Shown here: one piece after another, positions 558-17,160 of the stretch | How the letters are laid out: each line of letters begins with the position of its first letter | Numbering within the stretch: the stretch's first letter is position 1 | From: an uncultured Pseudomonadota bacterium | GTDB lineage: Bacteria; Desulfobacterota_B; Binatia; UBA9968 | DNA length: 17,392 bases | NCBI GenBank assembly: GCA_946478635.1 | Contig: CAMLCX010000039.1 | Coordinates: forward strand, 1 to 17,392 | Direction of reading: 5' to 3' | Notes under the pieces: generated by a model | What the model saw: the letters and a program-made list of their open reading frames with translations, nothing else | Told to the model about the DNA's origin: nothing | Database searches by the model: none | Translations under genes and position numbers: made by a program

Positions 558-566
558 TCACCCCCC
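558..566 (-). promoter_or_regulatory. ribosome binding site deciding the receiver start
   Basis: On the minus strand GGGGGGTGA lies 5 nt before the ATG at 552. No comparable site precedes the upstream in-frame starts at 612/615, so this site sets the start choice. Confidence 0.45.
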
Positions 567-757
567 TGTTTGGAGCAACTAGCATGCCCAAAGGGGACTT
601 ATGGAGGGACATCAACCGGCGTTTACTTCAGGGCGACGGCTTGCTTCTTTTGTCCTGGGTTTCTCATTTTCAGCAGCCGCCCTGGAGCGGTGCAAAATTG
701 TTACGGAGCGAATAGTGTGCGTCCGGGCATTTTTGAGCTGCGAAAGATGTTCTGACG

Positions 758-1035: not shown

Positions 1036-1168
1036 AAGGCAGAACAAGCCTCACAGCGCCGATTGTACGCCCCGTGCATCGATTAGGAAAGGACTCGGCA
1101 TTTTTGGCGCCGTGGGCCAATGCCGCTACTCTCCTCCTCACGCGTCAATGCCCAGAAACCAACCCTTC

Positions 1169-1198
1169 TTGACACAGGAAAGCACCATCCCCTATGGT
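1169..1198 (+). promoter_or_regulatory. candidate sigma-70-type promoter of SBP1, possibly leaderless
   Basis: TTGACA at 1169-1174 matches the -35 consensus exactly. TATGGT at 1193-1198 matches four of six -10 positions, with an 18-nt spacer. A start about 7 nt downstream would fall on or beside the ATG at 1205, giving a leaderless or nearly leaderless mRNA. This fits the absence of a Shine-Dalgarno before that ATG. The promoter is predicted from motif match only. Confidence 0.4.
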
Positions 1199-1200
1199 GC
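1182..1200. promoter_or_regulatory. perfect 7-bp inverted repeat overlapping the SBP1 -10 region (operator candidate)
   Basis: GCACCAT (1182-1188) and ATGGTGC (1194-1200) are exact reverse complements separated by CCCCT. The right arm overlaps the proposed -10 element and ends 4 nt before the SBP1 start codon. Size and position suit a dimeric repressor site; as RNA it could instead form a 5' hairpin. No regulator gene is in the window. Confidence 0.4.
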
Positions 1201-1204
1201 CGGC

Positions 1205-2355: not shown

Positions 2356-3456
2356 CTATGGATGCACCGTCTCCAGAAACCAATCCGTCGGAATCTCTCT
2401 GCCCAGTCCTTGTGTCTTGGCATCGTCGAGCACCGCTTTACCAAGCGCGGCGAACTGGATTCCCAGACCGATATTATTGTTGAAGCAGCTGATCTCTGTC
2501 GCCGATTGGCGGCCAGGAGCCTTTCCCGCTATCACATCTTTAAGCTCCGGGGCGCCCAGCCAAAAAGGCGGCTTTGGCGCAACGCTCGATCCCCTGCCGC
2601 CCTCCGTTAATAAATCAATCGGATCATGCGCCTCGACTTTCTCGTCGTTAAACCCGGTGATGTAATTGTCCGGCGCCCACTTTCGGGTATGGATCACCAA
2701 CCGATCGAATTTACGCAGCGTCTCTTCACCGAGTTCGGTAATCTTCACGCAGGTCACGTGCATGCCGGGCTTCAGCCAATCAGGTGGCACCACTCGCGAT
2801 ACCGAATTCGTAGCCGCCACCAGAATGTCCGCGCGCTCCGCAAGCGCCGCCCCGGAGACAGTCGCGTCCACAGGAATTCCCAGCTCTTTTTCTATTTCAA
2901 CGGCGAACTTCTCGCGATTGGCCTTGGTCGGACTGTAAACAAGTATCTTCTTGACGGCGCGGACGGCGCACATCGCCTTGGCATGGGCGCGCGCCTGCCA
3001 GCCCGATCCCAATATACCGATAACCTCGGCATCCTCTCGCGCGAGAAATCGCGCCGCCAGGGCGCTGCTCGCCGCCACGCGAATACCTTGAATGACGCCG
3101 TCCGGCAAGATCGCCAGCGGCTCTCCGGTTTCGGCAGAGAACAGCAGCACGAGGCCGACCCACTTATTGCCCGGCGCTGCCGGCACTTTATCTTTGATGA
3201 TGCGCCCGGCCTTCTCTTGCCACTTGATAACGTCCGAATTAAGGCGCAATGCGACAACTTTTTCACGCGTGAGGCCGCCTTCCATGGTTTTGAAACAATA
3301 AACCCCGCCGGTGGTCGTCGCAGGTAAGTAGAGGTCACTGCGTGGCCGATTGACCGCCTCGCCTTCGGATAGTTCTTTGTACGCCGATTCGAGATGCCGC
3401 AGGCAATTTTCCATCGACAGCAGCTTGCTGACTTCTTCGTTATTCAAGATTAGCAT
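2356..3456 (-). CDS. ornithine cyclodeaminase/mu-crystallin family NAD(P)-dependent enzyme (OCD1)
   Basis: The protein is 366 residues, the usual length for this family, which includes ornithine cyclodeaminase, alanine dehydrogenase, ketimine reductases and siderophore-type amino-acid synthases. The N-terminal catalytic part holds 'GEPLAILPDGVIQGIRVAAS' (residues 111-130), with the conserved Arg126 expected to bind the substrate carboxylate. The Rossmann dinucleotide loop is 'VIGILGSGWQARAHAKAM' (145-162). At the position of the family Lys ('GxKxV') this protein has Arg71 in 'VVALRLNSD', shared with OCD2, so classical ornithine deamination should not be assumed. AGGAG lies 13 nt before the ATG. 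It is divergent from the CheY-like gene and convergent with SBP1. Cytoplasmic. The family is clear; the substrate is unknown. Confidence 0.9.
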   Translation of the reverse strand: MLILNNEEVSKLLSMENCLRHLESAYKELSEGEAVNRPRSDLYLPATTTGGVYCFKTMEGGLTREKVVALRLNSDVIKWQEKAGRIIKDKVPAAPGNKWVGLVLLFSAETGEPLAILPDGVIQGIRVAASSALAARFLAREDAEVIGILGSGWQARAHAKAMCAVRAVKKILVYSPTKANREKFAVEIEKELGIPVDATVSGAALAERADILVAATNSVSRVVPPDWLKPGMHVTCVKITELGEETLRKFDRLVIHTRKWAPDNYITGFNDEKVEAHDPIDLLTEGGRGSSVAPKPPFWLGAPELKDVIAGKAPGRQSATEISCFNNNIGLGIQFAALGKAVLDDAKTQGLGREIPTDWFLETVHP

Positions 3457-3738: not shown

Positions 3739-4110
3739 ATGCCGCATGAGTCTATCCTGATCGTTGACGACCAACCGGTGGACGCGAAACTAATCCAGAG
3801 GGTGCTTGACGATGAAGGTTATAGAGTGACTATAGCCGCAAATGCGCCAGAGGCGCTGCAGGGTGTGAAAGACTCGAAACCCGACCTAATCTTGATGGAT
3901 ATCCATCTCCCCGGCATGGGCGGCATGGAGTTGACCAAGTTTCTAAAATCGAATCCAGAATCACGGCACATCAAGATTATTGCCATCTCCGCCTATGCCT
4001 CGACGGAAGATCAACAGCGAGCTATTACTACCGGTTGCGACGGCTACATTGCGAAGCCAGTCGACATCCGAACCTTTGCGAATTCTATCCGAGAATACCT
4101 GAACAAATAA
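3739..4110 (+). CDS. single-domain response regulator, CheY/DivK-like
   Basis: A 123-residue protein consisting only of a receiver domain. All hallmark residues are present: acidic pair Asp10-Asp11 in 'ILIVDDQP', phospho-acceptor Asp54 in 'DLILMDIHLPGMGG', switch Ser84 in 'IAISAYA', and Lys106-Pro107 in 'GYIAKPVD'. It should take phosphate from a histidine kinase or phosphotransfer protein in the cytoplasm and act through protein contact. The 'P-D-L-I-L-M-D-I-x-L-P-G-M' pattern is typical of the DivK/PleD-type receivers often annotated as cell-cycle or polar-growth regulators, but a role cannot be assigned. Only a weak purine-rich stretch precedes the ATG. A TGTGATAAT extended -10-like sequence about 150 nt upstream is unproven. 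No kinase is nearby. Confidence 0.9.
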   Translation: MPHESILIVDDQPVDAKLIQRVLDDEGYRVTIAANAPEALQGVKDSKPDLILMDIHLPGMGGMELTKFLKSNPESRHIKIIAISAYASTEDQQRAITTGCDGYIAKPVDIRTFANSIREYLNK

Positions 4111-4208: not shown

Positions 4209-5684
4209 TTAGCCTCGTGACCCGCCGTTCCGACGCAGCCAATTCAGGAATTCGCGCCGCGTTTTCGGCCCGTACGTAAGAAAGTGCGGCTCGGGATGCT
4301 CGCCGTAAGCGAGCCGCTCGTGAGATAACCGGTCGGCCCGGGTGTGTTTCTTCACCTCCTCGGCGCTGATGGCATAAACCTTCGTCGCGTTCAGCCCGAA
4401 GATTTTGGCGCGCAGCACCGGGGTAATCTCGGGATAGCCGTACATCGCGCGCAGCTCGGGCGCGATCTGGAACGTGCGAAAGGCCTGGATCTGGTCCTGC
4501 GGCGAGCCGTACCAGATCGAGTCCGTGCCCCACAGCACGTTGTTTTCGCCGCAATATTTGATGAGCTTGCCCAGCGCATGGGCCGCGCTGGTGGGATCGC
4601 GCATGAGAAAACGCCAGGTGCTGCCCAGTTCAGCGTAAACGTTGCTGTTCGGTTTGATGCCGTTGTCGAGGAGCGAGCGGATGAGCGTGTCGATGCCGTC
4701 GCTCGCGCCGCGCCCGCTATACGCGCGCTCCTGAACGCCGGCGACAAAACCCGAATGGTATACAAGAAAACTCACGTCCGGGAAACGCTTGGCCACGACT
4801 CCGATGTCGCTGCACTGGCTGTGCTCGTAGGACTGCCTGCCGAAGGGCAACCCCTTGTGCACGCAGATCACCTTGACGCCGAGAGCGCGCGCCTTCTCGA
4901 TGAAGCGCGTGCCGACGTCGTCCGACAAAAAATAACCTTTGCCGTCCACGCCCCACTGCGTGTAGGTCTTCCACGCCGACACTTTCCAGCGCTCTTTCAG
5001 CTCGTCCATGAACTCGAGATCGCCCGGCTGATTGGGATTGACCCGGCCGTGAATCAGCAATCGATGGGTGCCTTCCGTGCGGTCAACGATGCGGCGCACC
5101 GCATCGGCCGCCTGGATCGTCAACGGCTCAGCATCGCGGCGCGACGGCACGAACGAGAGCACCATCATGTCGGTATCGCTGTCGAGAAATACGTCTTTGA
5201 CGAATTCCTCGGGTCCGAGGCAGTTGAGATAGCTGAGCGCGCCGGGTTTGGCAGCAAGGCCGCAGCCTGCTTTGGGCGACCACTTGAACGAATCGGCGGG
5301 CACTGTCTTTACCCAGGCTCCGGTCGGATCGACGAAATGCCCCTGCACGTCGAAGATAAACTCGCCTTTGCCGCCGACCCGCGCCTGCGCAAGCTGCGGC
5401 TCGAGCGCCGCTTCCGGTTCGATCTCGAAGAATCCGCCGAGCTTTCCCGTTGCCCCGTTCGCCGCGTTAAAAGCCAGTAACGCGCTCGCCGCGCCGCATG
5501 CCGAAATCAAAAAATCGCGGCGACCGATCCCCAGGCGTCTCGCATTCTCGCTCGCCGCTGCATGCGCCAGTTGATTGCCGGCGCGGTTCGCCGGGGAAAG
5601 CGGGACAGGCTCGAACTCCCCATTCGAAGTCGTATCTAGCTTGATCGGCAACCGCAGCCCTTCCGGATCGATCGTGTGTTTCAT
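4209..5684 (-). CDS. Tat-exported metal-dependent amidohydrolase (amidohydrolase_2 type)
   Basis: The protein is 491 residues and has a twin-arginine motif 'RRDFLISA' (Arg55-Arg56) followed by an Ala-rich hydrophobic stretch to about residue 80, indicating export of a folded metalloprotein. The 54 residues before the twin arginines are unusually long, but no internal Met offers a shorter start. The body is a TIM-barrel hydrolase of the PF04909 kind: 'FDVQGHFVD' (111-119), 'VICVHKGLPFG' (272-282), 'FLVYHSGF' (306-313) and 'WGTDSIWYG' (385-393). Likely ligands are His116, His276, His310 and Asp388. The expected first His of the HxH pair is Gln114. Relatives act as hydrolases or nonoxidative decarboxylases; which applies here is unknown. 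It lies 303 nt downstream of SBP2 in the same direction and may be a separate transcription unit. Confidence 0.88.
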   Translation of the reverse strand: MKHTIDPEGLRLPIKLDTTSNGEFEPVPLSPANRAGNQLAHAAASENARRLGIGRRDFLISACGAASALLAFNAANGATGKLGGFFEIEPEAALEPQLAQARVGGKGEFIFDVQGHFVDPTGAWVKTVPADSFKWSPKAGCGLAAKPGALSYLNCLGPEEFVKDVFLDSDTDMMVLSFVPSRRDAEPLTIQAADAVRRIVDRTEGTHRLLIHGRVNPNQPGDLEFMDELKERWKVSAWKTYTQWGVDGKGYFLSDDVGTRFIEKARALGVKVICVHKGLPFGRQSYEHSQCSDIGVVAKRFPDVSFLVYHSGFVAGVQERAYSGRGASDGIDTLIRSLLDNGIKPNSNVYAELGSTWRFLMRDPTSAAHALGKLIKYCGENNVLWGTDSIWYGSPQDQIQAFRTFQIAPELRAMYGYPEITPVLRAKIFGLNATKVYAISAEEVKKHTRADRLSHERLAYGEHPEPHFLTYGPKTRREFLNWLRRNGGSRG

Positions 5685-5987: not shown

Positions 5988-7010
5988 TCAGGAACCCAGT
6001 TTCCCTTCTTTTCTCAGTTCCTGCTGCGCCGCTTTCAAGATTCTTTCGTCGATCACTTTGTCCACGGTCAGATTTCGATCGACCAGGCCCGCGCGCACGT
6101 CTTCATCGAGCATGACTTTGATGCCGTCCACCGCGACGGACAAATCCGTGGTGAAGCCGCGCGAATAGAGATCGTAGGCTTTGCTGACCGTGTCGGCATC
6201 GCCCTTCAGTCCCGCCTCGAAGCCCGCCCGGATCGCTTCGCTTTTATTGTTGCGCGCGAGCTGCATGCCCAGGATATGGGCCTTGAGAAATCTCTTGGTC
6301 GTCTCGGGATATTTCTCCAGAATCTCGCCGCGGGTAGCGATAACGGCTTGGGGAATCGTCAGGCTATCGCTCAAATTGACAATCAACGGATAGCCTTTGC
6401 TCAGCAACAACACCGCCTCCTCCGGCGAAAACGGCGCTGCCGCGATCAAACCGTTCTCGAGTGCCGCGAGGCGCACCGGCGTCGGTCCGATCGCCCGCAG
6501 GACGACATCGCGATCTGGATCGATGTTGCGATTTTTTAAGAACACGCGGGTCGCAAAGTCGGAGAATGCGCCGGCTCCGGTAACACCGATAATCTTCCCC
6601 TTTAGATCCTCGATGGTTTTGGTGCTCTTGTTGCCGAGAATGACGTAACTCACCCGATTGGAGATCGACCCGATGATCGAGATGTCCACGCCTCGGGCGC
6701 GACTGCGAATAATCGACTGCGCGCCGCCGATGCTGGCAAAATCGACGTCGCCCGATATAACGGCTGCTATCGCCGTCGGCCCGCCGCGGATAAAGATAGG
6801 CTCCACGCTAAGTCCTTGGCTCTTGAAATATCCCCTCGCCATCGCAATGCGAAACGGCAGGGAACTCGTCCAGGTATGGCTCACGAACACGACGCGCACG
6901 GTTTTCTTCTCTTGTGCTCCCGCGGCAGTCGCGGCCGACGCAAGCGCGAGCAAAACGACAGCGAGCCGAGCGAGCAACACCGTCGGTCTATTTGTCGAAC
7001 TCAATTTCAT
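5988..7010 (-). CDS. periplasmic substrate-binding protein, NitT/TauT type (SBP2)
   Basis: The protein is 340 residues. A Sec signal peptide ('LLARLAVVLLALASAATAA', cleaved near 'AGA-QEKK', residue 32) is followed by an NMT1/THI5-like binding protein: 'TWTSSLPFRIAMARGYFKSQ', 'ISGDVDFASIGGAQSIIRS', 'LKGKIIGVTGAGAFSDFATR'. GGGGTGA lies 4 nt before the ATG at 7010, supporting this start. It starts 31 nt after the OCD2 stop and is likely the last gene of the main operon. It is a paralogue of SBP1 and SBP3, but the first-lobe ligand loops differ strongly, so different ligands are expected. No permease or ATPase is encoded in the window. Confidence 0.92.
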   Translation of the reverse strand: MKLSSTNRPTVLLARLAVVLLALASAATAAGAQEKKTVRVVFVSHTWTSSLPFRIAMARGYFKSQGLSVEPIFIRGGPTAIAAVISGDVDFASIGGAQSIIRSRARGVDISIIGSISNRVSYVILGNKSTKTIEDLKGKIIGVTGAGAFSDFATRVFLKNRNIDPDRDVVLRAIGPTPVRLAALENGLIAAAPFSPEEAVLLLSKGYPLIVNLSDSLTIPQAVIATRGEILEKYPETTKRFLKAHILGMQLARNNKSEAIRAGFEAGLKGDADTVSKAYDLYSRGFTTDLSVAVDGIKVMLDEDVRAGLVDRNLTVDKVIDERILKAAQQELRKEGKLGS

Positions 7011-7041
7011 TCAGTCACCCCGCGAATACATTTTGCGTCAT

Positions 7042-8115
7042 TTAATTTCTAATTTTTTGAATGAACCATTCCAGCGGCAGTTCTTGACCAAGCTTTTTCT
7101 CTTGGCAACGCAGATACGCCAGGCGGCCCAGGGCGGCGAACTGCACACCGGTGCCCTCGCTCTTGAACAAATTGATTTCCGCCGGCGACTCGCGTCCCGG
7201 CGCCTTGCCCAGGAGCAAATCGGCGAAACGAACCCGCTGGGTATTCGCGGACGAAGTTACCAACCGATCGTGATCCGGGCCGGCGCCGCCCAGGGTTCGC
7301 GGGCGATGCTCTTCCGAGGTCGTAAACAGATTGATCGCATGCCCGCTCTGGTAACTGACGTATCGATCCAGACGCCGGTATACTTCCTTGTCGGCTTCGC
7401 GATGGTTGACGGTCGTCACATGCATGCCTTGATCGAGCCACTTACCGAAAAGGACAGCTTCGCCGGTGTCGGTGCAACTGGCGACGATGTCGGATTTTTC
7501 GACGGCGATCTCCGGTCGCTCCACCGCTAGGATTTCAAAAGAAAACTCCCGGCTCATTCTCTTTGCCAACTCTTCCCGATGTTCGCGATTCGGACTGTAA
7601 ATTTTGACAAGGCGCAGCGGCCGGATCTCCGCATAAGCGCGCAGGTGCGACTCGGCCATTCCTCCTGAGCCAAGGATACCGAGCACGGAGGTATCTTCGC
7701 GAGCCATGCGTTTCGCGGCAATGGCCGCGGTGGCGCCAACCCGGAGGTGTTGGATAACTCCGTCATTCAAGATCGCCAGCGGCTCGCCGTTCTCGGCGCG
7801 AAAGAGCAAAATCAATCCGCAGAAGCGCTCCGGCTCCATGCAATAGTTGTAGCTTCGCACCTTGCCATAGAGCGTCGGCCAGCACAGCACATCCGATTTG
7901 ATGCGAATCGCCACCACGCCCGCATGAGCGAGCCCGCCTTCCGCCGAACTGAACCTGTACCACTTATCAGGGTCATTAGTATGAACATGCATCTGGGACT
8001 TGGTCCGATTAGCTGCGCTGCCCGCGGCTTCCTCTTTGTAGGCGTCCTCGAGCGCGCTGATGCAATCCGCCATATTGAGCACTTGACCGGCGGTATCGTT
8101 ATCGATCAATAGCAT
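7042..8115 (-). CDS. ornithine cyclodeaminase/mu-crystallin family enzyme (OCD2)
   Basis: The protein is 357 residues and paralogous to OCD1 over its whole length (shared 'GEPLAILxDGVIQ', 'APGRxSxxEI', 'QFAALG', and a common C-terminal 'LGxExPxxWF'). Its Rossmann loop is 'VLGILGSGGMAESH' (144-157). Conserved Arg125 in 'VIQHLRVGATAA' should hold the substrate carboxylate, and Arg71 in 'VVAIRIKSD' sits where ornithine cyclodeaminases carry a Lys. It is predicted to be a cytoplasmic NAD(P)H/NAD+-dependent oxidoreductase or deaminase/imine reductase on an amino or imino acid. The start at 8115 has only a weak ribosome site. It lies 51 nt after the Mo-hydroxylase small subunit and 31 nt before SBP2, so it is probably cotranscribed. 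Confidence 0.9.
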   Translation of the reverse strand: MLLIDNDTAGQVLNMADCISALEDAYKEEAAGSAANRTKSQMHVHTNDPDKWYRFSSAEGGLAHAGVVAIRIKSDVLCWPTLYGKVRSYNYCMEPERFCGLILLFRAENGEPLAILNDGVIQHLRVGATAAIAAKRMAREDTSVLGILGSGGMAESHLRAYAEIRPLRLVKIYSPNREHREELAKRMSREFSFEILAVERPEIAVEKSDIVASCTDTGEAVLFGKWLDQGMHVTTVNHREADKEVYRRLDRYVSYQSGHAINLFTTSEEHRPRTLGGAGPDHDRLVTSSANTQRVRFADLLLGKAPGRESPAEINLFKSEGTGVQFAALGRLAYLRCQEKKLGQELPLEWFIQKIRN

Positions 8116-8166
8116 TTGGGATTCTTAGAAATACGGGAGCCACGCGCGCGCCTTCAATGTCATCAA

Positions 8167-8673
8167 TCAGCGCGCGTTTCGATCAGGCAGACCGGCAGCC
8201 GCCTCTTGCACCGACGCGACGATGGCCGGATAGGCGCCGCAGCGGCAGATATTGCCCGAAAGCCATTCGGTGATTTGCTCTCTTGTCGGCGACGGGTTGG
8301 CCAACAGCAAGCCTTTCGCGGACATGATCTGACCCGGCGTGCAAAAACCGCATTGGGCGCCGATGTTGCGCATAAACGCTTCCTGCAAGGGGTCGAGGAC
8401 ATCGTTCCTGGACAGGCCCTCGATGGTCAGCACCGCTTTTCCATTCGCTTCGCAGGCCAGATAGTTGCACGAGCTGATCGGTTGCGCATCGACCAATACC
8501 GTGCACGCGCCGCAAACCTGGGATTCGCAGGAGCGCTTCGTTCCTGTGAGACCCAGCCGCTCGCGGATAAATTCCAAAAGCGTTTCCTGCGCCGGGATTT
8601 CGCCCTGCCACGTCCCGCCATTGACGTCGATGCGCACCGCCAGCATCTGCATGTCATCGGTTTGTTCAGCCAT
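8167..8673 (-). CDS. molybdenum hydroxylase small subunit, 2x[2Fe-2S] ferredoxin
   Basis: The protein is 168 residues, the usual size for CoxS/XdhC-type small subunits. The N-terminal plant-type cluster is bound by Cys49, Cys54, Cys57 and Cys69 ('SCESQVCGACTVL'). The second, helical-domain cluster is bound by Cys108, Cys111, Cys143 and Cys145 ('QCGFCTPGQ', 'NICRCGAYPA'). All eight ligands are present. It passes electrons from the Moco centre to the FAD subunit. The start at 8673 is chosen over the longer frame to 8739 because it overlaps the FAD-subunit stop by 8 nt (translational coupling) and has AGGA about 9 nt upstream. Cytoplasmic heterotrimer subunit. Confidence 0.95.
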   Translation of the reverse strand: MAEQTDDMQMLAVRIDVNGGTWQGEIPAQETLLEFIRERLGLTGTKRSCESQVCGACTVLVDAQPISSCNYLACEANGKAVLTIEGLSRNDVLDPLQEAFMRNIGAQCGFCTPGQIMSAKGLLLANPSPTREQITEWLSGNICRCGAYPAIVASVQEAAAGLPDRNAR

Positions 8674-9550
8674 TCTTGCCATCCTGTTTTTTATCGACGC
8701 TCCGGAGCGCTTGAGCCAGCGCGCGCTCCAATAAGACACCGGCGATATAGATCTTATATTCCGCCGAACCCAAGAGATCGTCTATCGGTTGAAGAGTTTT
8801 CTTCAGGTAAGTTTTCGCTTCTCGAATTATTCTGTCGCTATCGTTCGGATCGCCGCCCCGGATCTGCGCTTCGAGCTCGGTCAGTCTGAGCGCGGTGGGA
8901 CCGACGCATCCCACAGCCAGGCGAACGTCTTCGATGGCGCCGTTGCGGCGCGACGCCGCGGCGGCGACAGTCAGTGTCGGCCGCTGCAGCCGGTGAATGC
9001 GCATGTAGGAACTGCCGAACTCAGCTGGTAAACATGGTACGTCGATGGACACGAGCATCTCGTCGGCCTCCAGCGCGGTCGCATACATGCCGCGCAGGAA
9101 TTGGTGCAGCGGCATCTGTCTCGCTCCAGCCGGCCCCTGGACGGTCACGCTTGCGTCGTAGATCAACAGCGCGGTGGCGGGATCCGAGTGCGGGTCGTTG
9201 AAGCATAGATTGCCGCCGATCGTGCCCTGACCGCGGACGCGAATATTGGCAACTTGCGATTCGGCGCCGGCGAGCATCGGCAGCTTTGCGCGAATGGTCG
9301 CATCCGCTTCCAGGCGCCGATGCGTCACCGAAGCGCCGATGCGCACGGATTTGTCATTGCCGCGAATCTCACCCAATTCGACGATGGGTTTGATGTTCAG
9401 TAGATAATCCGTTCGGAGCAAATTATGTCGCAGCAAGATCAACAACTCGGTGCCGCCGCCATAAACCTTCGCCTGATCGCCGAGACGCACCAACTCACGG
9501 ACGGCATCGCTCACCGAGTTCGTGTTCAATATTTTAAATGGCGGAAGCAT
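8666..9550 (-). CDS. molybdenum hydroxylase medium subunit, FAD-binding (CoxM-like)
   Basis: The protein is 294 residues from the ATG at 9550, the normal family length; the frame is open to 9814 but that part overlaps the large-subunit gene in another frame and is not family-like. FAD pyrophosphate-binding motifs are visible: 'VYGGGTELLILL' (29-40) and 'TIGGNLCFNDPHSDPATALL' (110-129). The start 'MLPPFKILNTNSVSDAVREL' is typical ('fpPFeyhrP.sl.eAl..L'). It transfers electrons from the [2Fe-2S] clusters to the final acceptor. It lies 22 nt after the large subunit and overlaps the small subunit by 8 nt. The ribosome site before 9550 is weak, consistent with coupling to the upstream gene. Confidence 0.95.
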   Translation of the reverse strand: MLPPFKILNTNSVSDAVRELVRLGDQAKVYGGGTELLILLRHNLLRTDYLLNIKPIVELGEIRGNDKSVRIGASVTHRRLEADATIRAKLPMLAGAESQVANIRVRGQGTIGGNLCFNDPHSDPATALLIYDASVTVQGPAGARQMPLHQFLRGMYATALEADEMLVSIDVPCLPAEFGSSYMRIHRLQRPTLTVAAAASRRNGAIEDVRLAVGCVGPTALRLTELEAQIRGGDPNDSDRIIREAKTYLKKTLQPIDDLLGSAEYKIYIAGVLLERALAQALRSVDKKQDGKNG

Positions 9551-9572
9551 GATTCGTTCGAATTCCCGTGCA

Positions 9573-11867
9573 TCATGTAAGTTTGCCGAGGGCGGCGAGG
9601 ATCTTTTCCGGAGAAATCGGTAGAGATCGAACCCGCGCTCCGACAGCGTCGTAGATGGCGTTACCGATCGCCGGCGCGACCGTAACGATGGTCGTTTGCG
9701 ACATTCCTTTGGAGCCGAAGGGGCCGGGACCGTCGCCGCCCTCCATGACTGACGTCTGCATCGAACTCGGCAGGTCCTTGGAAACCGGCAGGCGGTATTG
9801 AAAAGGATCACCATTCAAAATCTGGCCGTCGGAGTACACCACCTCCTCGAACAGGGCATGGCCGAACCCCATTACGGCGCCGCCGAGGAGCTGGGCAATC
9901 GCCGATTTATAATGAAGCATCTCACCGGCGTCGACGGCTACCGCGTATTGAAGCACTTCAAACTCCCCCGTGTCCGGGTCCACTTCCACTTCGGCGATGG
10001 CTGCGCTGGGCGCCCAATGATCCATACCGGCAAACGAAGAGGAATCGACCTGCACCGGCGGCGCACGATAGGCGCCCATGCTTTTGATCGTCGCGTCCGG
10101 TCCAAGCAGACGGACAATTTCACCGAACGAAAAACTGCGCTCGGCGCGGCAAACATGCCCTTGCACCACGGTCCACTCCTCGGCACTCCCGCCCTTCAGC
10201 TGCGCCGCCGTCCGGATCATTTCCTGTTTCAAGTTTTCACAGGCGTTGTAGACCGCCGTTCCCAGTTGAATCGTGGTGCGCTGCGAGTTCACTCCCATGA
10301 ACGCGAGCCGCAAAGAGGTGTCCGGCATGGCGACGGACACCTGTTCCTGCGGAATATCCAGAGACCGCGCCGTAATGACGCTGATGAGATTGAAGATGCC
10401 TTGTCCCAGGTCGGGCGCGTTATGGCGCATGGTGATCGTGCCGCTCGCATCCACGACCGCCATGGCGTCCGTTTGCCCGCCGCCGAAGGATCCGTGCCGC
10501 AGCGATAAAGCCATCCCTTTGCCGCGCCTGCGTCCGGATCGAGTTGACTGCGGATTTTCTCCGTTGGCAGCGTCGCCGGAGCTTGCGGTCGCCGACGTCA
10601 CCCTATCGATCAGCTCCAAAAAATCGGTGTCCATGTGCGGCGTGCCCTTGGTAACGAATTCCCCTCGGACCAAAACGTTTTTCCGCCGAAATGCCACGGG
10701 GTCGACGCCGAGTTGACGCGCCACGCTGTCCATCATGCATTCCACCGCCCAGGTGGTCTGCACCTTTCCCGTGGCGCGCGTGTGTCCCGCCGGAACTTTG
10801 TTGGTATAGGCGCACCGTCCATACACCCTCAAGTTCGGAATTCGGTAGCAACCCCATCCTGAAATGACCGCGTTATGGGTCGCCGTCGCCGCGCCGGTGG
10901 TATAGGCTCCGGTGTTCACGACCAACTCGACGTGCAGGGCCGTGATCGTCCCATCGAGCTTCACGCCGATCTTCGCCTCGAAGAGCATCGCGTGACGGGA
11001 ATTTTGCAGAAAGCTTTCCTGCGCGGAAGGAACCAGCTTGATCGGCCGCCCGCCGATTTTTTGCGATAGGTACAAAGCAGCCAGGTGCGCGTTGATGATA
11101 TTCTTCGAGCCGAAGCCGCCGCCGATGTAGGGCACCCGCAGGCGCACGTTCTCCGGAGCAAGTTTGAAGAAATGGGCGATTTCATTGCCATCGCGATAGG
11201 GCGCGTTGGTCGGCACTAACAAGTCGATTTTGTCGTCGGCGAATTGAGCGATGCAGCCGCCGACGTTTTCCATGGGATGATGAAACATCGCCGGCGAAGT
11301 GTAGGTCTCTTCGAAGACGCGCTCCGCCTCTTTAAATCCGCGCTCCATATCGCCCCACTCGAGCTTGTCTTCGAGAAGAAGGTTGCTGCCTTTCTTCTCA
11401 TGCAGCAGCGGCGCGCCCGGACCGAGCGCCTCGCGGCCGTCGTAAACGTGCGGCAGCGGCTCATAGCTGACATTGATGAGATCGACCGCTTGCTGGGCCG
11501 CGCGCAAACTTTCCGCGGCGACAATGGCGACGACTTCGCCGTTGAACCGGACTTTGTCGATGGCGATGAAAGGCTGATCTTCGGTCAGCTTGAAATGCTC
11601 GTTTCGCGGCAGCGGCCGCAAGGGGTGAAAGTCCCCCAGATGATCTCGGTGCAAAACGCCGACAACGCCGGGGAATCGTTCCGCTTCGCTGGAGTCGATG
11701 GAAATAATTCTTGCGTGGGAATAAGGGCTAGTCAGCACCGCGCCAAAGAGCATACCGGCGGGCTCGGGCAGATCTTCGATGTATTTCGCGCCGCCGGTTA
11801 CCTTCGGTCGCATGTCGATGCGCGGGGCGTGCTGTAAACGTTCCTTCGCTTCCGTGTTCGCAGACAT
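9573..11867 (-). CDS. molybdenum hydroxylase large subunit, molybdopterin cofactor-binding (xanthine dehydrogenase family)
   Basis: The protein is 764 residues from the ATG at 11867, preferred over 11900 because AGGAG lies 9 nt upstream. The N-terminal part ('DMRPKVTGGAKYIEDL', 'SPYSHARI') is typical. Moco-binding motifs are 'YIGGGFGSKN' (247-256), 'TRATGKVQTTWAVECMMD' (363-380), 'APDLGQGIF' (484-492) and 'NSQRTTIQLGTAVYNA' (527-542). The C-terminal catalytic loop reads 'GPFGSKGMSQTTIVTVAPAI': where the family usually has 'GVGEP' with the catalytic Glu, this protein has Gln724 (codon CAA at 9696-9698). The 'TQxP' Gln near Mo also appears as Asn221 ('PTNAPY'). It lacks the VAYRCSFR signature of form I CO dehydrogenase. 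Relatives hydroxylate N-heterocycles, aldehydes or aryl-CoA. The substrate is unknown, and activity should not be assumed. Confidence 0.93.
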   Translation of the reverse strand: MSANTEAKERLQHAPRIDMRPKVTGGAKYIEDLPEPAGMLFGAVLTSPYSHARIISIDSSEAERFPGVVGVLHRDHLGDFHPLRPLPRNEHFKLTEDQPFIAIDKVRFNGEVVAIVAAESLRAAQQAVDLINVSYEPLPHVYDGREALGPGAPLLHEKKGSNLLLEDKLEWGDMERGFKEAERVFEETYTSPAMFHHPMENVGGCIAQFADDKIDLLVPTNAPYRDGNEIAHFFKLAPENVRLRVPYIGGGFGSKNIINAHLAALYLSQKIGGRPIKLVPSAQESFLQNSRHAMLFEAKIGVKLDGTITALHVELVVNTGAYTTGAATATHNAVISGWGCYRIPNLRVYGRCAYTNKVPAGHTRATGKVQTTWAVECMMDSVARQLGVDPVAFRRKNVLVRGEFVTKGTPHMDTDFLELIDRVTSATASSGDAANGENPQSTRSGRRRGKGMALSLRHGSFGGGQTDAMAVVDASGTITMRHNAPDLGQGIFNLISVITARSLDIPQEQVSVAMPDTSLRLAFMGVNSQRTTIQLGTAVYNACENLKQEMIRTAAQLKGGSAEEWTVVQGHVCRAERSFSFGEIVRLLGPDATIKSMGAYRAPPVQVDSSSFAGMDHWAPSAAIAEVEVDPDTGEFEVLQYAVAVDAGEMLHYKSAIAQLLGGAVMGFGHALFEEVVYSDGQILNGDPFQYRLPVSKDLPSSMQTSVMEGGDGPGPFGSKGMSQTTIVTVAPAIGNAIYDAVGARVRSLPISPEKILAALGKLT

Positions 11868-11876
11868 AAGTTCGGA

Positions 11877-11881
11877 CTCCT
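11877..11881 (-). promoter_or_regulatory. ribosome binding site for the Mo-hydroxylase large subunit
   Basis: AGGAG on the minus strand, 9 nt before the ATG at 11867. It favours this start over the in-frame start 33 nt upstream at 11900, for which the site would be internal. Confidence 0.5.
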
Positions 11882-11907
11882 GAAAAGCCGGTTGAACCAA
11901 TCGTCGT

Positions 11908-12897
11908 CTACTTCGTCACGCCCAGCTCTCTTTGCGCCTCGCGCAGAAAACTATCGTCGACGATCTCGCTGCTCGGAATGGCGCGCGTGATGCCCAAGGA
12001 ATTGCGAAAGCCGTCGATCACGACGCGCAGCCCGTCTTCCGGGATGTTCGCGTCGTGGCTGAAGAACTCCCATGACGAATCATAGGAGGCCGCCGCCAGC
12101 TCGGGCTTCGTCTTCGTCCAGTCGATCAATACGCGGATCGTTCCATCGCGATTCTTGCGAATGTAGTTGTTTGCCTTGATCAGCGCGCGAATCGCGCGTT
12201 TGACCTGATCGGGCCGCTCTTTGATTTTTCTCGTGTTGGTTCCTAGTCCATTGTAAGGGAAGGTAAAAATATCGCCGGCTCGCGCCAGGACATGGAAGCC
12301 CAGCTTTTTCCCCTCATAATCGGTCGGCGGTGCGACGATGATCGCATCGACAATTCCTTCCTTGAGCGCCGCCAGCCGGGAAGCATCGGTGGGCAGGCCG
12401 ATCGCTTTGATCTCCTTTTCCGGATCCACACCGAAGTGTTTGAGCACCATCCTGCCCACCACGTCCGGTGTTGACCCAAAGGATGGGATGCCGATGGTTT
12501 TCCCGCGCAATTCCTTGATGGATTTGATACCGGGCTTGGCGACAAACACGATCGGCGTTCGATCCTGCGAGCACGCGACCAGCTTCAACGGCGCACCTTT
12601 GATCGCCGCGCCGATCAAAGAGCCGATGAGCGCCGAAAAGTCCACATCCCCCGTGACCGCCGCCGTGGTCGCGACGTTCGGATTCATGCGGATCACTTCC
12701 GAGTCGAAGCCCTCCTCTTTAAAGAAACCTCTCGAGTGAGCGACGCCCATCGAGAGGCTCGAAAGATTATAGTTCGACACGGCGATCCGAAGCCGTTCGG
12801 CGCTGTAAAGATCGGCGGGCAATAAAAGCGTCAGTAATAGTAGGCAAAAGCATCTACCGGATTGCAACATTGCTGCTCGCGGCCTCCACGCTGTCAT
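11908..12897 (-). CDS. periplasmic substrate-binding protein, NitT/TauT type (SBP3)
   Basis: The protein is 329 residues from the ATG at 12897, selected because GGGAG lies 7 nt upstream; an in-frame ATG at 12930 overlaps the preceding gene's stop by 8 nt and is an alternative. The signal peptide ends near 'LLLPADLYSA' (residue 33). Family marks: 'LSMGVAHSRGFFKEEGFDSE' (strand 1 region), 'TGDVDFSALIGSLIGAAIKG', 'LRGKTIGIPSFGSTPDVVGR', and a C-terminal 'VDDSFLREAQRELGVTK'. It lies within the operon, 40 nt before the Mo-hydroxylase large subunit and 25 nt after the HDO-like gene. This ties its ligand to the catabolic enzymes more strongly than for SBP1. Ligand unknown. Confidence 0.93.
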   Translation of the reverse strand: MTAWRPRAAMLQSGRCFCLLLLTLLLPADLYSAERLRIAVSNYNLSSLSMGVAHSRGFFKEEGFDSEVIRMNPNVATTAAVTGDVDFSALIGSLIGAAIKGAPLKLVACSQDRTPIVFVAKPGIKSIKELRGKTIGIPSFGSTPDVVGRMVLKHFGVDPEKEIKAIGLPTDASRLAALKEGIVDAIIVAPPTDYEGKKLGFHVLARAGDIFTFPYNGLGTNTRKIKERPDQVKRAIRALIKANNYIRKNRDGTIRVLIDWTKTKPELAAASYDSSWEFFSHDANIPEDGLRVVIDGFRNSLGITRAIPSSEIVDDSFLREAQRELGVTK

Positions 12898-12904
12898 TCT
12901 TGAA

Positions 12905-12909
12905 CTCCC
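12905..12909 (-). promoter_or_regulatory. ribosome binding site for SBP3
   Basis: GGGAG lies 7 nt before the ATG at 12897 and supports that start rather than the overlapping ATG at 12930. Confidence 0.5.
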
Positions 12910-12922
12910 ATGGCTGGGAATT

Positions 12923-13594
12923 CTAGACATAGGCTTTGTACATCCCCTCGAACTTCATGATATTGAGCCGCACGATCCAATCGGCGACATCGCGAACGAT
13001 CTGCTCTTCGCCGAGAGCACAGTGCCTCATGATATAGTCCGCCGCGTCCCGGGTATGCTCTTCGTCGGCAATTTTGTGCATCATAAAAAACTGACAGCCT
13101 TGGTCATTGAGACCATAGTGCTTGCGAAGATGCGTGTCGAATTCGTCGGAATAGCGAGTGAGAATCGTCTCGTTGGTAAATCCCGACACTCGGGTTTCGA
13201 TGGGCGATCCAAGGTAGCGGTTGCGCAACACCACGCTCATATGCATGAGGTTCTCGAAGGTCGGACGCGCGGTCGTAAAATCTTCCTCTTTGAGCCCCAT
13301 GGCGAAGCCAAAGCGTTTGACCAGACTGGGATGTTGTTGCTCCTCCGCGAACTTGCCGGCGAAGGCGCCATAGAGCTCGGGATCGTGGGCGTACTTGAAC
13401 ATGCAGATCACCTGTCCCTTGGCGATGGAGATGTTGTACAGATAATGCTCCAGGGCCCAGGCTTGAATCCGTCGCCGCGACAGTTTGCCGGAACGAAGCT
13501 CAGTGAAATAAGGCGTTTCCAACAATCGCTTTATGCCCGGCTCGATAATATCGCCCATGACCTCGCCGATTATATTGTTTTTTTCCGCTTTCAT
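12923..13594 (-). CDS. heme-oxygenase-fold protein, probable di-iron oxidase/oxygenase (HDO-like; PqqC/TenA superfamily)
   Basis: The protein is 223 residues, predicted all-helical, cytoplasmic, without a signal peptide. It belongs to the TenA/PqqC/heme-oxygenase-like fold, shown by 'FAEEQQHPSLVKRFG' (82-96), 'GFTNETILTRY' (138-148) and 'CQFFMMHKIADEEHTRDAADY' split as CQFFMMHKIAD (167-177) and EEHTRDAADY (178-187). The last gives His173-x3-Asp177-x2-His180, the third-helix ligand pattern of heme-oxygenase-like di-iron oxidases such as CADD, UndA and BesC. His88 and Glu142 are also in place, with Glu84 or Glu85 as the sixth ligand. No TenA-type catalytic Cys context is apparent, so thiamine salvage is unlikely. 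AAAGGAGA lies 10 nt before the ATG. Such enzymes use O2 to cleave or oxidise small acids and amines. It sits directly after the bicupin gene (36 nt). Confidence 0.88.
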   Translation of the reverse strand: MKAEKNNIIGEVMGDIIEPGIKRLLETPYFTELRSGKLSRRRIQAWALEHYLYNISIAKGQVICMFKYAHDPELYGAFAGKFAEEQQHPSLVKRFGFAMGLKEEDFTTARPTFENLMHMSVVLRNRYLGSPIETRVSGFTNETILTRYSDEFDTHLRKHYGLNDQGCQFFMMHKIADEEHTRDAADYIMRHCALGEEQIVRDVADWIVRLNIMKFEGMYKAYV

Positions 13595-13604
13595 CTCAAT
13601 CGAT

Positions 13605-13612
13605 TCTCCTTT
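13605..13612 (-). promoter_or_regulatory. strong ribosome binding site of the HDO-like gene
   Basis: AAAGGAGA on the minus strand, 10 nt before the ATG at 13594. It is one of the two best Shine-Dalgarno sequences in the window. Confidence 0.55.
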
Positions 13613-13630
13613 GTCCGAGCTGAACCGACA

Positions 13631-14644
13631 CTATTCTTTTATTCCCTCTTCCCGATAATAGCCAAGGGCGTCAAGCGCGGGCTTGTTGCTCAGGACGAAC
13701 AAAATCGCCGGCTCGGCAAAGCGGTCCTCGTGATAATGAAACCGCCAAAGTGGCACCGACAAGGTATCGCCCGCCTGCCACTCGTAACGCACATCGTCGA
13801 TCACCGTCACGCCTGCGCCGCGAAACACATAATATACGGTGGAGCTGGTGTGACGATGCGAGCGCGTCTTTTCACCGGGCCGGAGCATTTGGATGGCGCA
13901 GGACAAGGTCGGGAGCGTGGGCCCGCCGGTGAGCGGATTGACGTACTCGAGGAAAATCGCGTCGAAAGGATCACCTGGTTTTTCACCCAAAGTTTTTAAC
14001 GCCTTTTCTGTTTCCAGCCAGGCGTAACGATAGCCGGGAGGATGGATGGAGTGCGATTGCACCCGGGTGGGACGGATGGACCTCAGCTCGGCGCGGGTCG
14101 TGCCTTCGGGTTTGGAAATGACCTGCTTACCCGTTTCATGGGGCTCATGAAAACCGACTTCAAGAAATCGCATCAAGGGAGAATCCAACGCATCGATCCA
14201 CAGCACGGGTTCATTGGAATGATTCACATGCTCATGCCAGGTCCAGTGCGGATTGGTGAGAAAGTCGCCCTCCTCCATGGCGAACGACTCGCCTTCCACG
14301 ACGCACCGAGCCCCTCTTCCTTTAATCACGAAGCGGACGCCCGCTTGGGTGTGACGGTGCGCCAGCGCATGCTCTCCGGGCTGAAGCATTTGCAGGTTGA
14401 ATTGAAAGGAAGGGGCGGTGGTTCCCTTGCCGGGACTGCATAGCCGGATCACTCTCCTCGACACCATTTCCAGACCGATGACCTCGCCCGCCTGGATGAT
14501 TGCGTCATTGATATCCTGCCGTTTCCACAAGCACGGTTCGTAGGTGGCGGCCGGCTCGCGGTACGATTCACCCTCCGCCGTTTCCCAGTAGCCCGCCAGG
14601 TTTTTCTGCTTAAGTTCCGCATTGAACTGTTTGAGATCCTTCAT
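13631..14644 (-). CDS. bicupin ring-cleavage dioxygenase, gentisate 1,2-dioxygenase-like
   Basis: The protein is 337 residues with two cupin domains and the overall layout of gentisate 1,2-dioxygenase, 1-hydroxy-2-naphthoate dioxygenase and salicylate 1,2-dioxygenase. The N-terminal cupin carries the expected Fe(II) ligands: His96 and His98 in 'EHALAHRHTQAGVRFVIKG' (91-109) and His137 in 'NPHWTWHEH' (131-139). The C-terminal cupin has a second intact 'HRH' (263-265) and 'FHYH' (302-305), so it might also bind metal. The expected reaction is O2-dependent opening of a hydroxylated aromatic acid ring, in the cytoplasm. GAGG lies about 8 nt before the ATG at 14644. It is the first gene of the minus-strand operon, so its upstream DNA should hold the operon promoter. 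Exact substrate open; gentisate is only the default guess. Confidence 0.9.
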   Translation of the reverse strand: MKDLKQFNAELKQKNLAGYWETAEGESYREPAATYEPCLWKRQDINDAIIQAGEVIGLEMVSRRVIRLCSPGKGTTAPSFQFNLQMLQPGEHALAHRHTQAGVRFVIKGRGARCVVEGESFAMEEGDFLTNPHWTWHEHVNHSNEPVLWIDALDSPLMRFLEVGFHEPHETGKQVISKPEGTTRAELRSIRPTRVQSHSIHPPGYRYAWLETEKALKTLGEKPGDPFDAIFLEYVNPLTGGPTLPTLSCAIQMLRPGEKTRSHRHTSSTVYYVFRGAGVTVIDDVRYEWQAGDTLSVPLWRFHYHEDRFAEPAILFVLSNKPALDALGYYREEGIKE

Positions 14645-14854: not shown

Positions 14855-16990
14855 TTAAAGCGTCACATCAGTGACGACCGCAGCGCCCAGAGAACCGTCG
14901 GGATTTTTCCCGCCACAACCTTTGTCCTTGATCCCCTTCGAGGGCGGCAACGAGTCGACCCCGCCTTCGAGTGCCTGCCGGGGACAGACATCGTCTTCAT
15001 CGTGAATGTCCGCCGACCCGTCCAAAACCTCGCGATGCACCGCCGCCGAGAAACTGTAATCGCCGCGCGTGGAGTCGTTCGCGTTAGCCGCAAGCGCTCC
15101 GGCGCACTGCAATGTCACCAGATAGGCGACGTTCAGGGTCTTCTTGGGCGCGATAATTTTGCTGCCGCCGCTGCCGAACAAACCTGCGTTTCTTCCGGCG
15201 TCGAGGGCGACAACCGGCGCCTGGCACTGCTCCGAGTCGTTGTCCGTCGTGGTCACGGTCAATCGAACCAGTCCGGTGCTCACGCCGTTTCCCAGGTTCG
15301 CCTGCGTGATGGTCTCGCTGTGATCACTGCGGCTTTGAATGGTTACCGTGACTGCCGCGGTCACCGCGCCCGTGCCTTTGACCGTCCCCGGAGCGACAAG
15401 GTTGGTGATCGCGAGATCATGAACACCGATCGCAAAACAGGCGATCCAGGTCCCCCAGTTGTCGGACTTTTTGGAAGTAGCGTACTCATTGGCCGCGCAG
15501 AACATGTTGGAGAAATTCGGATCTATTGAAATGCCGCTGTAATCGCCGGCTCGGCAATCATCGACAAAAACCGAGCCGATGGCACAGTCGAAAGCCTTAT
15601 AGGTTCGTTGACCCCCTCTGGCAAGAAGCGGCGTGCGCATTTGTCCCGGCGCGTCTGCCGAATTTTGCCCGGTCACGTACATCGACATGAACTGCGCGCT
15701 CGAAGACTGCATGAAAGTCATCCCGACATCGCCGTTGGGCGCGATTTCGATGGACGGATAATAGGTGTGAATCCCGACGCCGGGATTGAGCGTTCCCTGC
15801 TGGGTCAAAGTGGGCGAGCCGCCGGAGGTGCGGAATTCATACCAGCGGACATGAGACTGCGTCGTCGCCGCAAGCCCGATGTTGTGAGTCGCGAGCAAAC
15901 GGCCGTCGCGCCAGACCACGCTGATAATGCTTGAGTCGTTGGTGTCGATTCGCCCGAACGCGCCGCTTCCCGGTTGCTCGGCATTGGGCGGAAACTCGTA
16001 AGCGTCGACGGTCACATCGGTTTCCGAGAAGCCCGGCGAATCCAAGACGTCGGTCATCTTGACGATGCGGATGTCCGAGCCAAGTGCGTCGCCCGATTCC
16101 ACGACAAACCACATGGGGTCACCGCTACTCGCTTCATGCATAAATGCGGGCGTCAGTGTGAAATCGACAGGGTCGCGCTCGACCTGCGAAGTCGACAAGG
16201 TCGAACTATTTCCATCCAGCGCGGTGCTTTTGTCGATGATGATGACTTTCACATGATCGAACTCCTGGCTGTCGGCGCCGAACATGTTGACAGTGATGAC
16301 GTGAATATCAGCGTTCCATCCAAGTTTCGGAAAATCGGGCAGCACGGTTTCATCCAACACCGCGCCATTGTCGGTTATATCGATGCGGTGCATTTCGCTG
16401 AAACCGTCGAGAGGATTAGAAGTATTGGAAACCGCATAGAGCAGAAAACCCGTTTTAGCAACATCGTTGTCATCAACCATCGTGACGACGAACCTTTCCG
16501 CGATATCGTCATAGGTGATCACCGGGTCGAAGCCGAAACTCACGGGACCCGTGGGCGCAAAGAACAGGTAGAGGTCTTGAAGGAAAACTCGTTTGCCGGT
16601 AACCCGGCTGTAATACGCGATGGTGGTGTTGGTGACTTCCACGATATGCGTGGGACCCGTCGCGACTTGAGTGTCGGGTGGCACCGAGCCGAAGCTGTTC
16701 GGAAAGCCGATTCCATCAAAGCCTTTGACGATACGCAGAGTATCGGTCGCCGGCGATTTCGCAGATTGAATGCCGGATGGTGCCGGCTGCGCGCGCGCCA
16801 CGCCGCTGTCGCGCTCGCGGGAAAGTTTTCCCTCGCGCTGCAATCTTGGATGCAAGCCCCGCGGAGCGATCATTTTCCTGTCCGAATCCTCGGCTTGTGC
16901 AAGCGTGGTAAATGCGAGACTGAAAAGCAGACTAAGACCAACAAACATCGAAACAAAGAATCGCGGGTGGAAATTAGTTATTTGCGGCAC
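14855..16990 (-). CDS. large secreted protein with beta-propeller-like and Ig-like regions, function unknown
   Basis: The protein is 711 residues from a GTG at 16990, chosen because AAGGAGGG lies 7 nt upstream and because it yields a Sec signal peptide ('FFVSMFVGLSLLFSLAFTTL' followed by AQA, cleavage near residue 33). A Pro/Arg-rich linker precedes a long beta-rich region beginning 'FDGIGFPNSFGSVPPDTQVA' with 'GPTHIVEVTNTTIAYYSR', a pattern seen in bacterial secreted proteins related to sialidase/BNR-type propellers, but no catalytic Asp-box set was identified. The last 200 residues ('HDLAITNLVAPGTVKGTGAV' onward) look like a CARDB/DUF11-type Ig sandwich, with paired Cys and a final 'CGGKNPDGS' stretch. 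It has no metal or catalytic motif and is probably unconnected with the neighbouring operon. Released, periplasmic or surface-attached location is likely. Confidence 0.88.
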   Translation of the reverse strand: MPQITNFHPRFFVSMFVGLSLLFSLAFTTLAQAEDSDRKMIAPRGLHPRLQREGKLSRERDSGVARAQPAPSGIQSAKSPATDTLRIVKGFDGIGFPNSFGSVPPDTQVATGPTHIVEVTNTTIAYYSRVTGKRVFLQDLYLFFAPTGPVSFGFDPVITYDDIAERFVVTMVDDNDVAKTGFLLYAVSNTSNPLDGFSEMHRIDITDNGAVLDETVLPDFPKLGWNADIHVITVNMFGADSQEFDHVKVIIIDKSTALDGNSSTLSTSQVERDPVDFTLTPAFMHEASSGDPMWFVVESGDALGSDIRIVKMTDVLDSPGFSETDVTVDAYEFPPNAEQPGSGAFGRIDTNDSSIISVVWRDGRLLATHNIGLAATTQSHVRWYEFRTSGGSPTLTQQGTLNPGVGIHTYYPSIEIAPNGDVGMTFMQSSSAQFMSMYVTGQNSADAPGQMRTPLLARGGQRTYKAFDCAIGSVFVDDCRAGDYSGISIDPNFSNMFCAANEYATSKKSDNWGTWIACFAIGVHDLAITNLVAPGTVKGTGAVTAAVTVTIQSRSDHSETITQANLGNGVSTGLVRLTVTTTDNDSEQCQAPVVALDAGRNAGLFGSGGSKIIAPKKTLNVAYLVTLQCAGALAANANDSTRGDYSFSAAVHREVLDGSADIHDEDDVCPRQALEGGVDSLPPSKGIKDKGCGGKNPDGSLGAAVVTDVTL

Positions 16991-16997
16991 CGATTTG

Positions 16998-17005
16998 CCC
17001 TCCTT
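16998..17005 (-). promoter_or_regulatory. near-perfect Shine-Dalgarno for a GTG start
   Basis: AAGGAGGG lies 7 nt before the GTG at 16990. It decides the start of the secreted protein, whose frame is open 117 nt further upstream without a comparable site. Confidence 0.7.
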
Positions 17006-17160
17006 GGCGGCCTTACATAGTATGCACCAAGATATCTCATAGCCGACTGAAATCCCAGGAAAATTCGGTGTCGTACCATGAAACTTGATGCAGGGGCGCG
17101 GAAGCAACGATACAGTTGATCGATATCGTCGGACTTGTCCGTGTCCGTAAATTCTTTAAA

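Follow-up and report, generated by a model that had tools for sequence, protein, structure and literature searches.

What would a bacterium do with an operon-like array that places a bicupin dioxygenase gene beside genes for a heme-oxygenase-like dimetal oxygenase (HDO), a three-subunit molybdenum enzyme, a member of the ornithine cyclodeaminase (OCD) family and two periplasmic binding proteins? Such an array lies on contig CAMLCX010000039.1 of an uncultured Binatia bacterium (assembly GCA_946478635.1), the 17,392 nucleotides of which we refer to as the window. A first-pass annotation, made from the sequence alone, proposed that the array encodes an undescribed degradation route, for example for a nitrogen-containing aromatic acid. 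The compact array itself stands: eight minus-strand open reading frames (ORFs) fill positions 5988 to 14644, and their coordinates, their short gaps and overlaps and their Pfam families, which are those first named, all agree. We lean slightly towards reading it as a catabolic operon for the aerobic breakdown of an aromatic or heteroaromatic acid by an undescribed route, with an HDO-bicupin module as its base. In the order of transcription, the genes are as follows.

13631 to 14644, minus strand: bicupin, opening the array; putative gentisate/salicylate-type ring-cleaving dioxygenase (Pfam Cupin_2; PDB 2d40; residues aligned to salicylate dioxygenase, SDO)
12923 to 13594, minus strand: HDO (CADD-type predicted fold; 3H/3C metal ligands, that is, three histidines and three carboxylates)
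11908 to 12930, minus strand: SBP1, NMT1/SsuA-type periplasmic binding protein (PF09084; orthologue at locus L084 85% identical)
9573 to 11867, minus strand: MoL, molybdenum-binding large subunit of the xanthine-oxidase family (MoCoBD_1/2; closest PDB entry 1rm6; Gln735 at the catalytic-Glu position; likely start ATG 11867)
8666 to 9550, minus strand: MoM, FAD-binding medium subunit (PF00941, PF03450; GGGTEL and TIGGN motifs; likely start ATG 9550)
8167 to 8682, minus strand: MoS, two-[2Fe-2S] small subunit (Fer2, Fer2_2; both Cys motifs; likely start ATG 8682 or 8673)
7042 to 8115, minus strand: OCD1, OCD/mu-crystallin family (PF02423; best PDB match 6t3e; L084 orthologue 80% identical)
5988 to 7010, minus strand: SBP2, NMT1/SsuA-type periplasmic binding protein (PF09084; L084 orthologue 81% identical, adjoining OCD1 there)

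These eight genes would be cotranscribed. With likely start codons, neighbouring genes of the array overlap by at most 17 bp and are at most 51 bp apart. The bicupin and HDO genes are 36 bp apart, and HDO overlaps SBP1 by 8 bp. SBP1 and MoL are separated by 40 bp, provided that MoL starts at ATG 11867, and MoL and MoM by 22 bp, provided that MoM starts at ATG 9550. MoM overlaps MoS by 8 to 17 bp, and gaps of 51 and 31 bp lie between MoS and OCD1 and between OCD1 and SBP2. For MoL, MoM and MoS, the likely starts lie inside the ORFs, the 5' ends of which are further upstream.

Is the bicupin equipped to cleave an aromatic ring? When aligned to SDO, it has a three-histidine iron site (H96, H98 and H137) and all six of the substrate and proton-relay residues of the gentisate dioxygenase (GDO)/SDO class: SDO Arg83, Gln108, Arg127, His162, Trp172 and Asp174 correspond to R63, Q85, R104, H139, W149 and D151. 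The available text of two papers describes these residues as substrate contacts, the majority of which are conserved in GDOs (PMC11264262, PMC10306065). The second cupin domain retains three histidines (H263, H265 and H303), and the protein matches a solved GDO structure (PDB 2d40) with an E-value of 5e-61. We therefore regard the bicupin as a putative ring-cleaving dioxygenase of the gentisate/salicylate class. Two pocket residues are altered, with Gln81 replacing SDO Trp104, a position occupied by Phe or Tyr in other enzymes, and Asn83 replacing Gly106, which makes gentisate itself an improbable ring substrate. The residues of relatives at these two positions vary between bicupin groups, as would be expected if each paralogue had its own substrate. 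While the bicupin shares its family, iron site and six residue equivalents with GDO, SDO and the 5-aminosalicylate 1,2-dioxygenase MabB, it differs from them in Gln81 and Asn83, in having an HDO partner, and in scoring far below the curated equivalog cutoffs: its best NCBIfam match is MabB (NF049978; 288.2 bits against a cutoff of 650), with gentisate 1,2-dioxygenase at 260.2 bits (TIGR02272; cutoff 442.1). Neither these scores nor the companion genes in the window support an ordinary gentisate pathway; no gentisate-pathway isomerase or hydrolase was seen among the window proteins scanned with Pfam and NCBIfam.

The HDO is predicted to adopt the CADD-type, heme-oxygenase-like seven-helix fold. 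In the alignment its candidate ligands E85, H88, H173, D177 and H180 are invariant in 51 rows and E142 in 29 rows, giving the three histidines and three carboxylates of a 3H/3C site, and 49 of the 51 aligned HDOs match PF14518. TenA thiaminase II uses a catalytic Cys and is not known to have a metal site; the metal ligands of the window HDO thus argue against its being a TenA. Among close relatives, the HDO is 74 to 94% and MoL 80 to 93% identical to that of the window. When GTDB contigs were scanned with the HDO sequence alone, no relative was returned, and a scan with the alignment returned 36 loci, all at 51% identity or less to the window HDO. Neither the window HDO nor that of locus L152 matched a plasmid record, and the L096 HDO resembles plasmid PqqC genes at about 30%.

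In the available text of PMC13108848, characterised HDOs act in natural product biosynthesis, and CADD uses Tyr27 and Lys152 as sacrificial residues. The HMMER alignment places Phe30 and Phe152 of the window HDO at these two positions, and the protein scores 48 bits against the NCBIfam CADD model, which has a cutoff of 200. CADD-type self-sacrificing synthesis of 4-aminobenzoate was rejected, because the sacrificial Tyr and Lys are missing and the score is under the cutoff. The operon context, which looks catabolic, likewise sets this HDO apart from CADD/4-aminobenzoate synthase and from UndA, SznF and HrmI. The biosynthetic role of the characterised enzymes does raise an alternative, namely that the HDO and bicupin are tailoring enzymes in the biosynthesis of an aromatic natural product or cofactor. 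We consider this very unlikely: the bicupin keeps its ring-cleavage residues, the window proteins scanned include no biosynthetic core enzyme, and such pairs commonly stand near genes for binding proteins, hydrolases and UbiD-type decarboxylases.

How regularly, then, do bicupins and HDOs occur together? We searched for bicupins in 148 genomes, all from the class to which a Candidatus Binatia genome belongs, scoring up to 14 candidates per genome, and found at least 236 matches with E ≤ 1e-40, in 55 of the 148. A phylum-wide search of 395 genomes, with up to five candidates scored in each, gave matches with E ≤ 1e-30 in only G002 and G140, both of which also appear in the class-level list. Bicupin matches in plasmid records (209) were all below 60% identity, and the viral contigs scanned gave none. 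Sixty bicupin neighbourhoods were annotated with iterative hidden Markov models. They comprise 59 of the 63 best-scoring places (G140:C23 was taken separately as L087, and three were skipped) together with L152, which was chosen out of rank with its adjacent HDO match already known. The 60 loci hold 77 bicupins, and an HDO is encoded within 3 kb of 42 of them, on the same strand in all 42 cases and with a gap of less than 250 bp in 33.

We sorted the 77 bicupins by the residues at H96, H98 and H137, which gave 69 with the full gentisate-type iron site and eight in which it is incomplete. An HDO lies within 3 kb of 37 of the 69 gentisate-type bicupins in these loci, which were picked by bicupin (36 of 68 without L152), and always on the same strand (37/37). 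Five of the other eight also have an HDO, again on the same strand; seven of the eight belong to a second kind, and the bicupin of L149 lacks one ligand in the alignment. Proteins of this second two-cupin kind have no N-terminal iron site and keep the three histidines of the C-terminal cupin. They too are found near HDOs, at L118, L119, L122, L146, L147, L148, L151, L163 to L165 and L171, and in Chloroflexi at L027 to L029 and L032, there about 1 to 3 kb away from the HDO. The Chloroflexi bicupin-like proteins near HDOs (L027 to L029, L031 and L032), which stand outside the counts, group with this siteless kind. HDO pairing may thus span two kinds of bicupin.

To put a number on the association, we compared seven genomes (G001, G002, G003, G127, G129, G130 and G136, partly picked for known pairs) with uniform gene placement, a weak null because catabolic genes cluster anyway. 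HDOs lie within 500 bp of 21 of the 81 bicupins, where 0.98 would be expected (about 20-fold), and within 3 kb of 26 of 81, against 2.77 expected (about 9-fold), with all 26 on the same strand. The HDOs at the bicupin loci are highly divergent, sharing 12 to 50% identity with that of the window, which means that the pairing survives even when the HDO is replaced. The recurrence of the gene pair suggests that the two enzymes would take consecutive intermediates. The window order of bicupin, HDO and binding protein is found again at L095, L096, L102 and L104. At L096, L102, L104 and L107, a pyruvate-kinase-like gene, an alpha/beta hydrolase gene and a gene for an SBP_bac_5 transporter protein directly precede the bicupin-HDO pair; these assignments were checked with Pfam at L096, and those at L102, L104 and L107, like the permeases, were made by eye and by length.

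We next consider the molybdenum enzyme, which the first-pass annotation called a Mo hydroxylase. It has the subunit make-up of the xanthine-oxidase-family hydroxylases, such as 4-hydroxybenzoyl-CoA reductase and 6-hydroxypseudooxynicotine dehydrogenase, with Mo-binding domains, FAD and two [2Fe-2S] clusters, and since the FAD and [2Fe-2S] motifs are present its electron chain looks functional. It differs from them at the catalytic Glu of the family: in the alignment with these two enzymes, this position is held by Gln735 (numbering of the 775-aa ORF at 9573 to 11900). The family Glu, Glu869 in DgAOR and Glu1261 in the bovine enzyme, starts catalysis by deprotonating Mo-OH according to the available text of PMC4726530, and in that of PMC2671166 the mouse AOX1 E1265Q variant is inactive. 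The replacement thus argues against ordinary hydroxylation by MoL. It is not peculiar to the window. Among the nearest homologs of MoL, the best 120 of 2850 (60 to 93% identical), all 120 have Gln (121/121 rows with the window), as do all ten close matches found in 8 of the 148 class genomes; Glu is present in ten more distant Mo subunits aligned there, paralogues encoded at the same loci or at related ones. Binatia names appear among the MoL homologs, which suggests that the window comes from a Binatia-like source. MoL reaches about half of the NCBIfam cutoffs or less, for instance 420 bits against 994.55 for the 4-hydroxybenzoyl-CoA reductase alpha model, TIGR03194.

Four of these ten Gln-type genes (L155, L163, L168 and L170) have both a gentisate-type bicupin and an HDO within 10 kb. 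A same-strand bicupin of the second kind occurs within 10 kb at L163, L164, L165 and L171, so that seven of the ten have a bicupin of either kind; among the three that have none, L166 and L169 end at a contig edge on one side. In the five genomes compared, a bicupin is found within 10 kb of three of five Gln-type subunits versus 9 of 129 other Mo subunits, a figure that leaves out three tandem partners (12 of 132 with them). At five loci (L163, L165, L168, L169 and L170), Gln-type and Glu-type large subunits are encoded in tandem, which suggests that the two either share their small and medium subunits or form a complex with two large subunits. The window has the Gln-type subunit only, which is therefore not a mere partner of a neighbouring Glu-type subunit. 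A long frame of the L167 Mo subunit was considered as a fusion and rejected, because the arginine-rich N-terminal part looks like a spurious frame.

OCD1 shares the Pfam domain PF02423 and the NAD-binding motif with the OCD/mu-crystallin family, which includes pyrroline-2-carboxylate reductase and alanine dehydrogenase. Its closest PDB entry is the pyrroline-2-carboxylate reductase 6t3e (E 7e-28), and it is set apart by its best equivalog score of 117.9 bits (NF006379; cutoff 417). OCD enzymes act on imines, and OCD1 is likely an NAD(P)-dependent imine or keto reductase. A phylogenetic tree of the bicupins places that of the window as sister to a 14-member group (support 0.99). Within this group, L093, L097 and L114 cluster together (0.99); when bicupins are ranked by tree distance from that of the window, L093 comes first, L114 second and L097 fourth. 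These three of the four nearest bicupins have a same-strand OCD gene nearby, in the order bicupin-HDO-OCD-OCD at L114, bicupin-OCD at L093, and bicupin-SBP-OCD followed by OCD and MoL at L097. More widespread partners within 6 kb of a bicupin are UbiD-type decarboxylases (26/77) and NMT1-type binding proteins (33/77). Amidohydro_2 genes shorter than that of the window occur at bicupin loci L093, L097, L106 and L002, and L107 encodes MoM, MoS, a Glu-type MoL, permease-like proteins (by eye), a bicupin and an HDO on one strand. The neighbourhood first described thus recurs in part: bicupin with HDO often, bicupin with HDO and OCD at L114, bicupin with binding protein, OCD and Mo genes at L097, and bicupin with HDO and Mo genes at L107, L155, L163, L168 and L170.

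Several observations weigh against a catabolic operon built on the bicupin-HDO pair. Among the gentisate-type bicupins, 32 of 69 lack an HDO within 3 kb (14 of these lie near a sequence end), and 121 of the 150 HDOs listed, of 169 matches in the seven genomes, have no bicupin nearby. Of the 42 pairs, 29 have the HDO upstream of the bicupin and 13 have it downstream, as in the window; in the tree, the bicupin of the window falls outside the two groups that its relatives form. Within 6 kb of a bicupin, OCD and MoL genes are rare (3/77 and 2/77). At L155, L163, L168 and L170 the Gln-type Mo gene is on the opposite strand to the bicupin and HDO genes, unlike in the window. Pfam scans of the window proteins found no ABC permease and no regulator of a known type beside the array. 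Finally, at L084, on a contig of just 8.3 kb in genome G134, a member of the class searched, OCD1, SBP2 and SBP1 (80, 81 and 85% identical to those of the window) adjoin class II aldolase and UbiD genes and are not interrupted by any bicupin, HDO or Mo gene. The window array may therefore join two modules.

Taken further, such observations could mean that the array is a mosaic of co-located modules that serve no single pathway, in which only bicupin-HDO and OCD-SBP2-SBP1 are true units. Besides the L084 block, varying partner sets, the four loci with Mo genes opposite in strand to the pair and the rarity of OCD and MoL genes near bicupins, high family copy numbers would fit such a mosaic, with 13 to 33 HDO matches and 8 to 15 bicupins per genome in the seven genomes and 24 to 34 Mo large subunits in five. 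It is harder to reconcile with how tightly the window genes abut or overlap, with the frequency of gentisate-type bicupins near Gln-type as opposed to other Mo subunits of the same genomes (3/5 versus 9/129), and with the OCD genes that adjoin three of the four nearest bicupins. We judge the mosaic to be unlikely, though a serious contender. The scattering of these genes in related genomes, which the first-pass annotation had named as evidence against its proposal, is thus seen in part, for OCD-SBP2-SBP1 at L084. An undescribed degradation route accords with the array and with its partial recurrence in Binatia; the separate L084 block and the rarity of OCD and Mo genes near bicupins speak against one fixed pathway.

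Returning to the catabolic operon, the following scheme would account for its gene content. The two SsuA/NMT1-type binding proteins would catch and deliver the substrate, and the molybdo-flavo-FeS enzyme and the HDO-type dimetal oxygenase would oxidise it to a ring with oxygen and carboxylate groups in ortho position. The bicupin would then use O2 to cleave that ring, with the chemistry of gentisate and salicylate dioxygenases. OCD1 would reduce an imine or keto product, and the amidohydrolase encoded downstream might also process the opened product.

Could the substrate be a nitrogen-containing acid, as first proposed? A pathway that breaks down an acid with an N-heteroaromatic ring or an amino substituent, of the nicotinate, picolinate or aminosalicylate type, would fit the best NCBIfam match of the bicupin, the 5-aminosalicylate dioxygenase, at under half of its cutoff, and the pyrroline-2-carboxylate reductase that is closest to OCD1 in the PDB. 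The combination of a Mo enzyme, a ring-cleaving dioxygenase and an amidohydrolase-type gene also resembles that of picolinate and nicotinate degradation clusters. Those clusters use other ring-cleavage enzymes and are not known to contain an HDO. The bicupin scores nearly as well for gentisate dioxygenase, the Mo enzyme has Gln for its catalytic Glu, and nothing that we observed points to nitrogen specifically. We therefore think a nitrogen-containing acid distinctly unlikely. That the array falls outside the standard pathways does hold in the open-access literature searched, where we found no described pathway with this combination; nor did we find there a description of the HDO-bicupin pairing or of Gln-type Mo enzymes, most subscription papers being outside the scope of that search.

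Related genes lie just outside the eight-gene array. An Amidohydro_2 gene and a second OCD gene are on the array strand, beyond larger gaps, and a third binding protein is encoded on the other strand:

4209 to 5684, minus strand: Amidohydro_2-family hydrolase or decarboxylase, possibly a separate unit (PF04909; Tat-like leader, by eye)
2356 to 3456, minus strand: OCD2, second OCD paralogue, its tie to the array uncertain (PF02423; 37% identical to OCD1)
1112 to 2188, plus strand: third NMT1-type binding protein, just outside the array

The Amidohydro_2 gene is 303 bp downstream of the array and has a promoter-like match directly before it, and a terminator-like stem lies ahead of the bicupin gene at 14876 to 14861; the scan that gave them is weak, with 10 promoter-like matches versus 4.8 in shuffled sequences and 19 terminator-like matches versus 13.4. 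Despite the three NMT1-type binding proteins, no ABC permease or ATPase was seen among the window proteins scanned. Directly upstream of the bicupin gene, a 750-aa protein with no Pfam match is encoded at 14855 to 17107 (minus strand). Two stand-alone response-regulator receiver domains are encoded at 130 to 615 (minus strand) and 3739 to 4110 (plus strand).

What might these genes mean for Binatia and for the enzyme families concerned? We tentatively suggest, as a possibility that we would sooner doubt than accept, that Binatia hold a large and unrecognised catabolic branch of HDOs, which work with gentisate-type bicupins on diverse aromatic acids in many paralogous sets per genome, and that beside some sets the Gln-type Mo enzyme carries out a non-hydroxylating redox step new to its family, for example a dehydrogenation or a reductive dehydroxylation. 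A recurrent partnership of HDOs with ring-cleaving dioxygenases would point to a new branch of HDO chemistry with many untested enzymes, in a family that the available text of PMC13108848 presents as biosynthetic so far. A clade of Gln-only members of the Mo-hydroxylase family would likewise probe the role of a Glu thought to be essential, given the inactive AOX1 E1265Q variant reported in the available text of PMC2671166. Finally, the abundance of HDO matches in each of the seven Binatia genomes, 13 to 33, may bear on how Binatia use aromatic matter.

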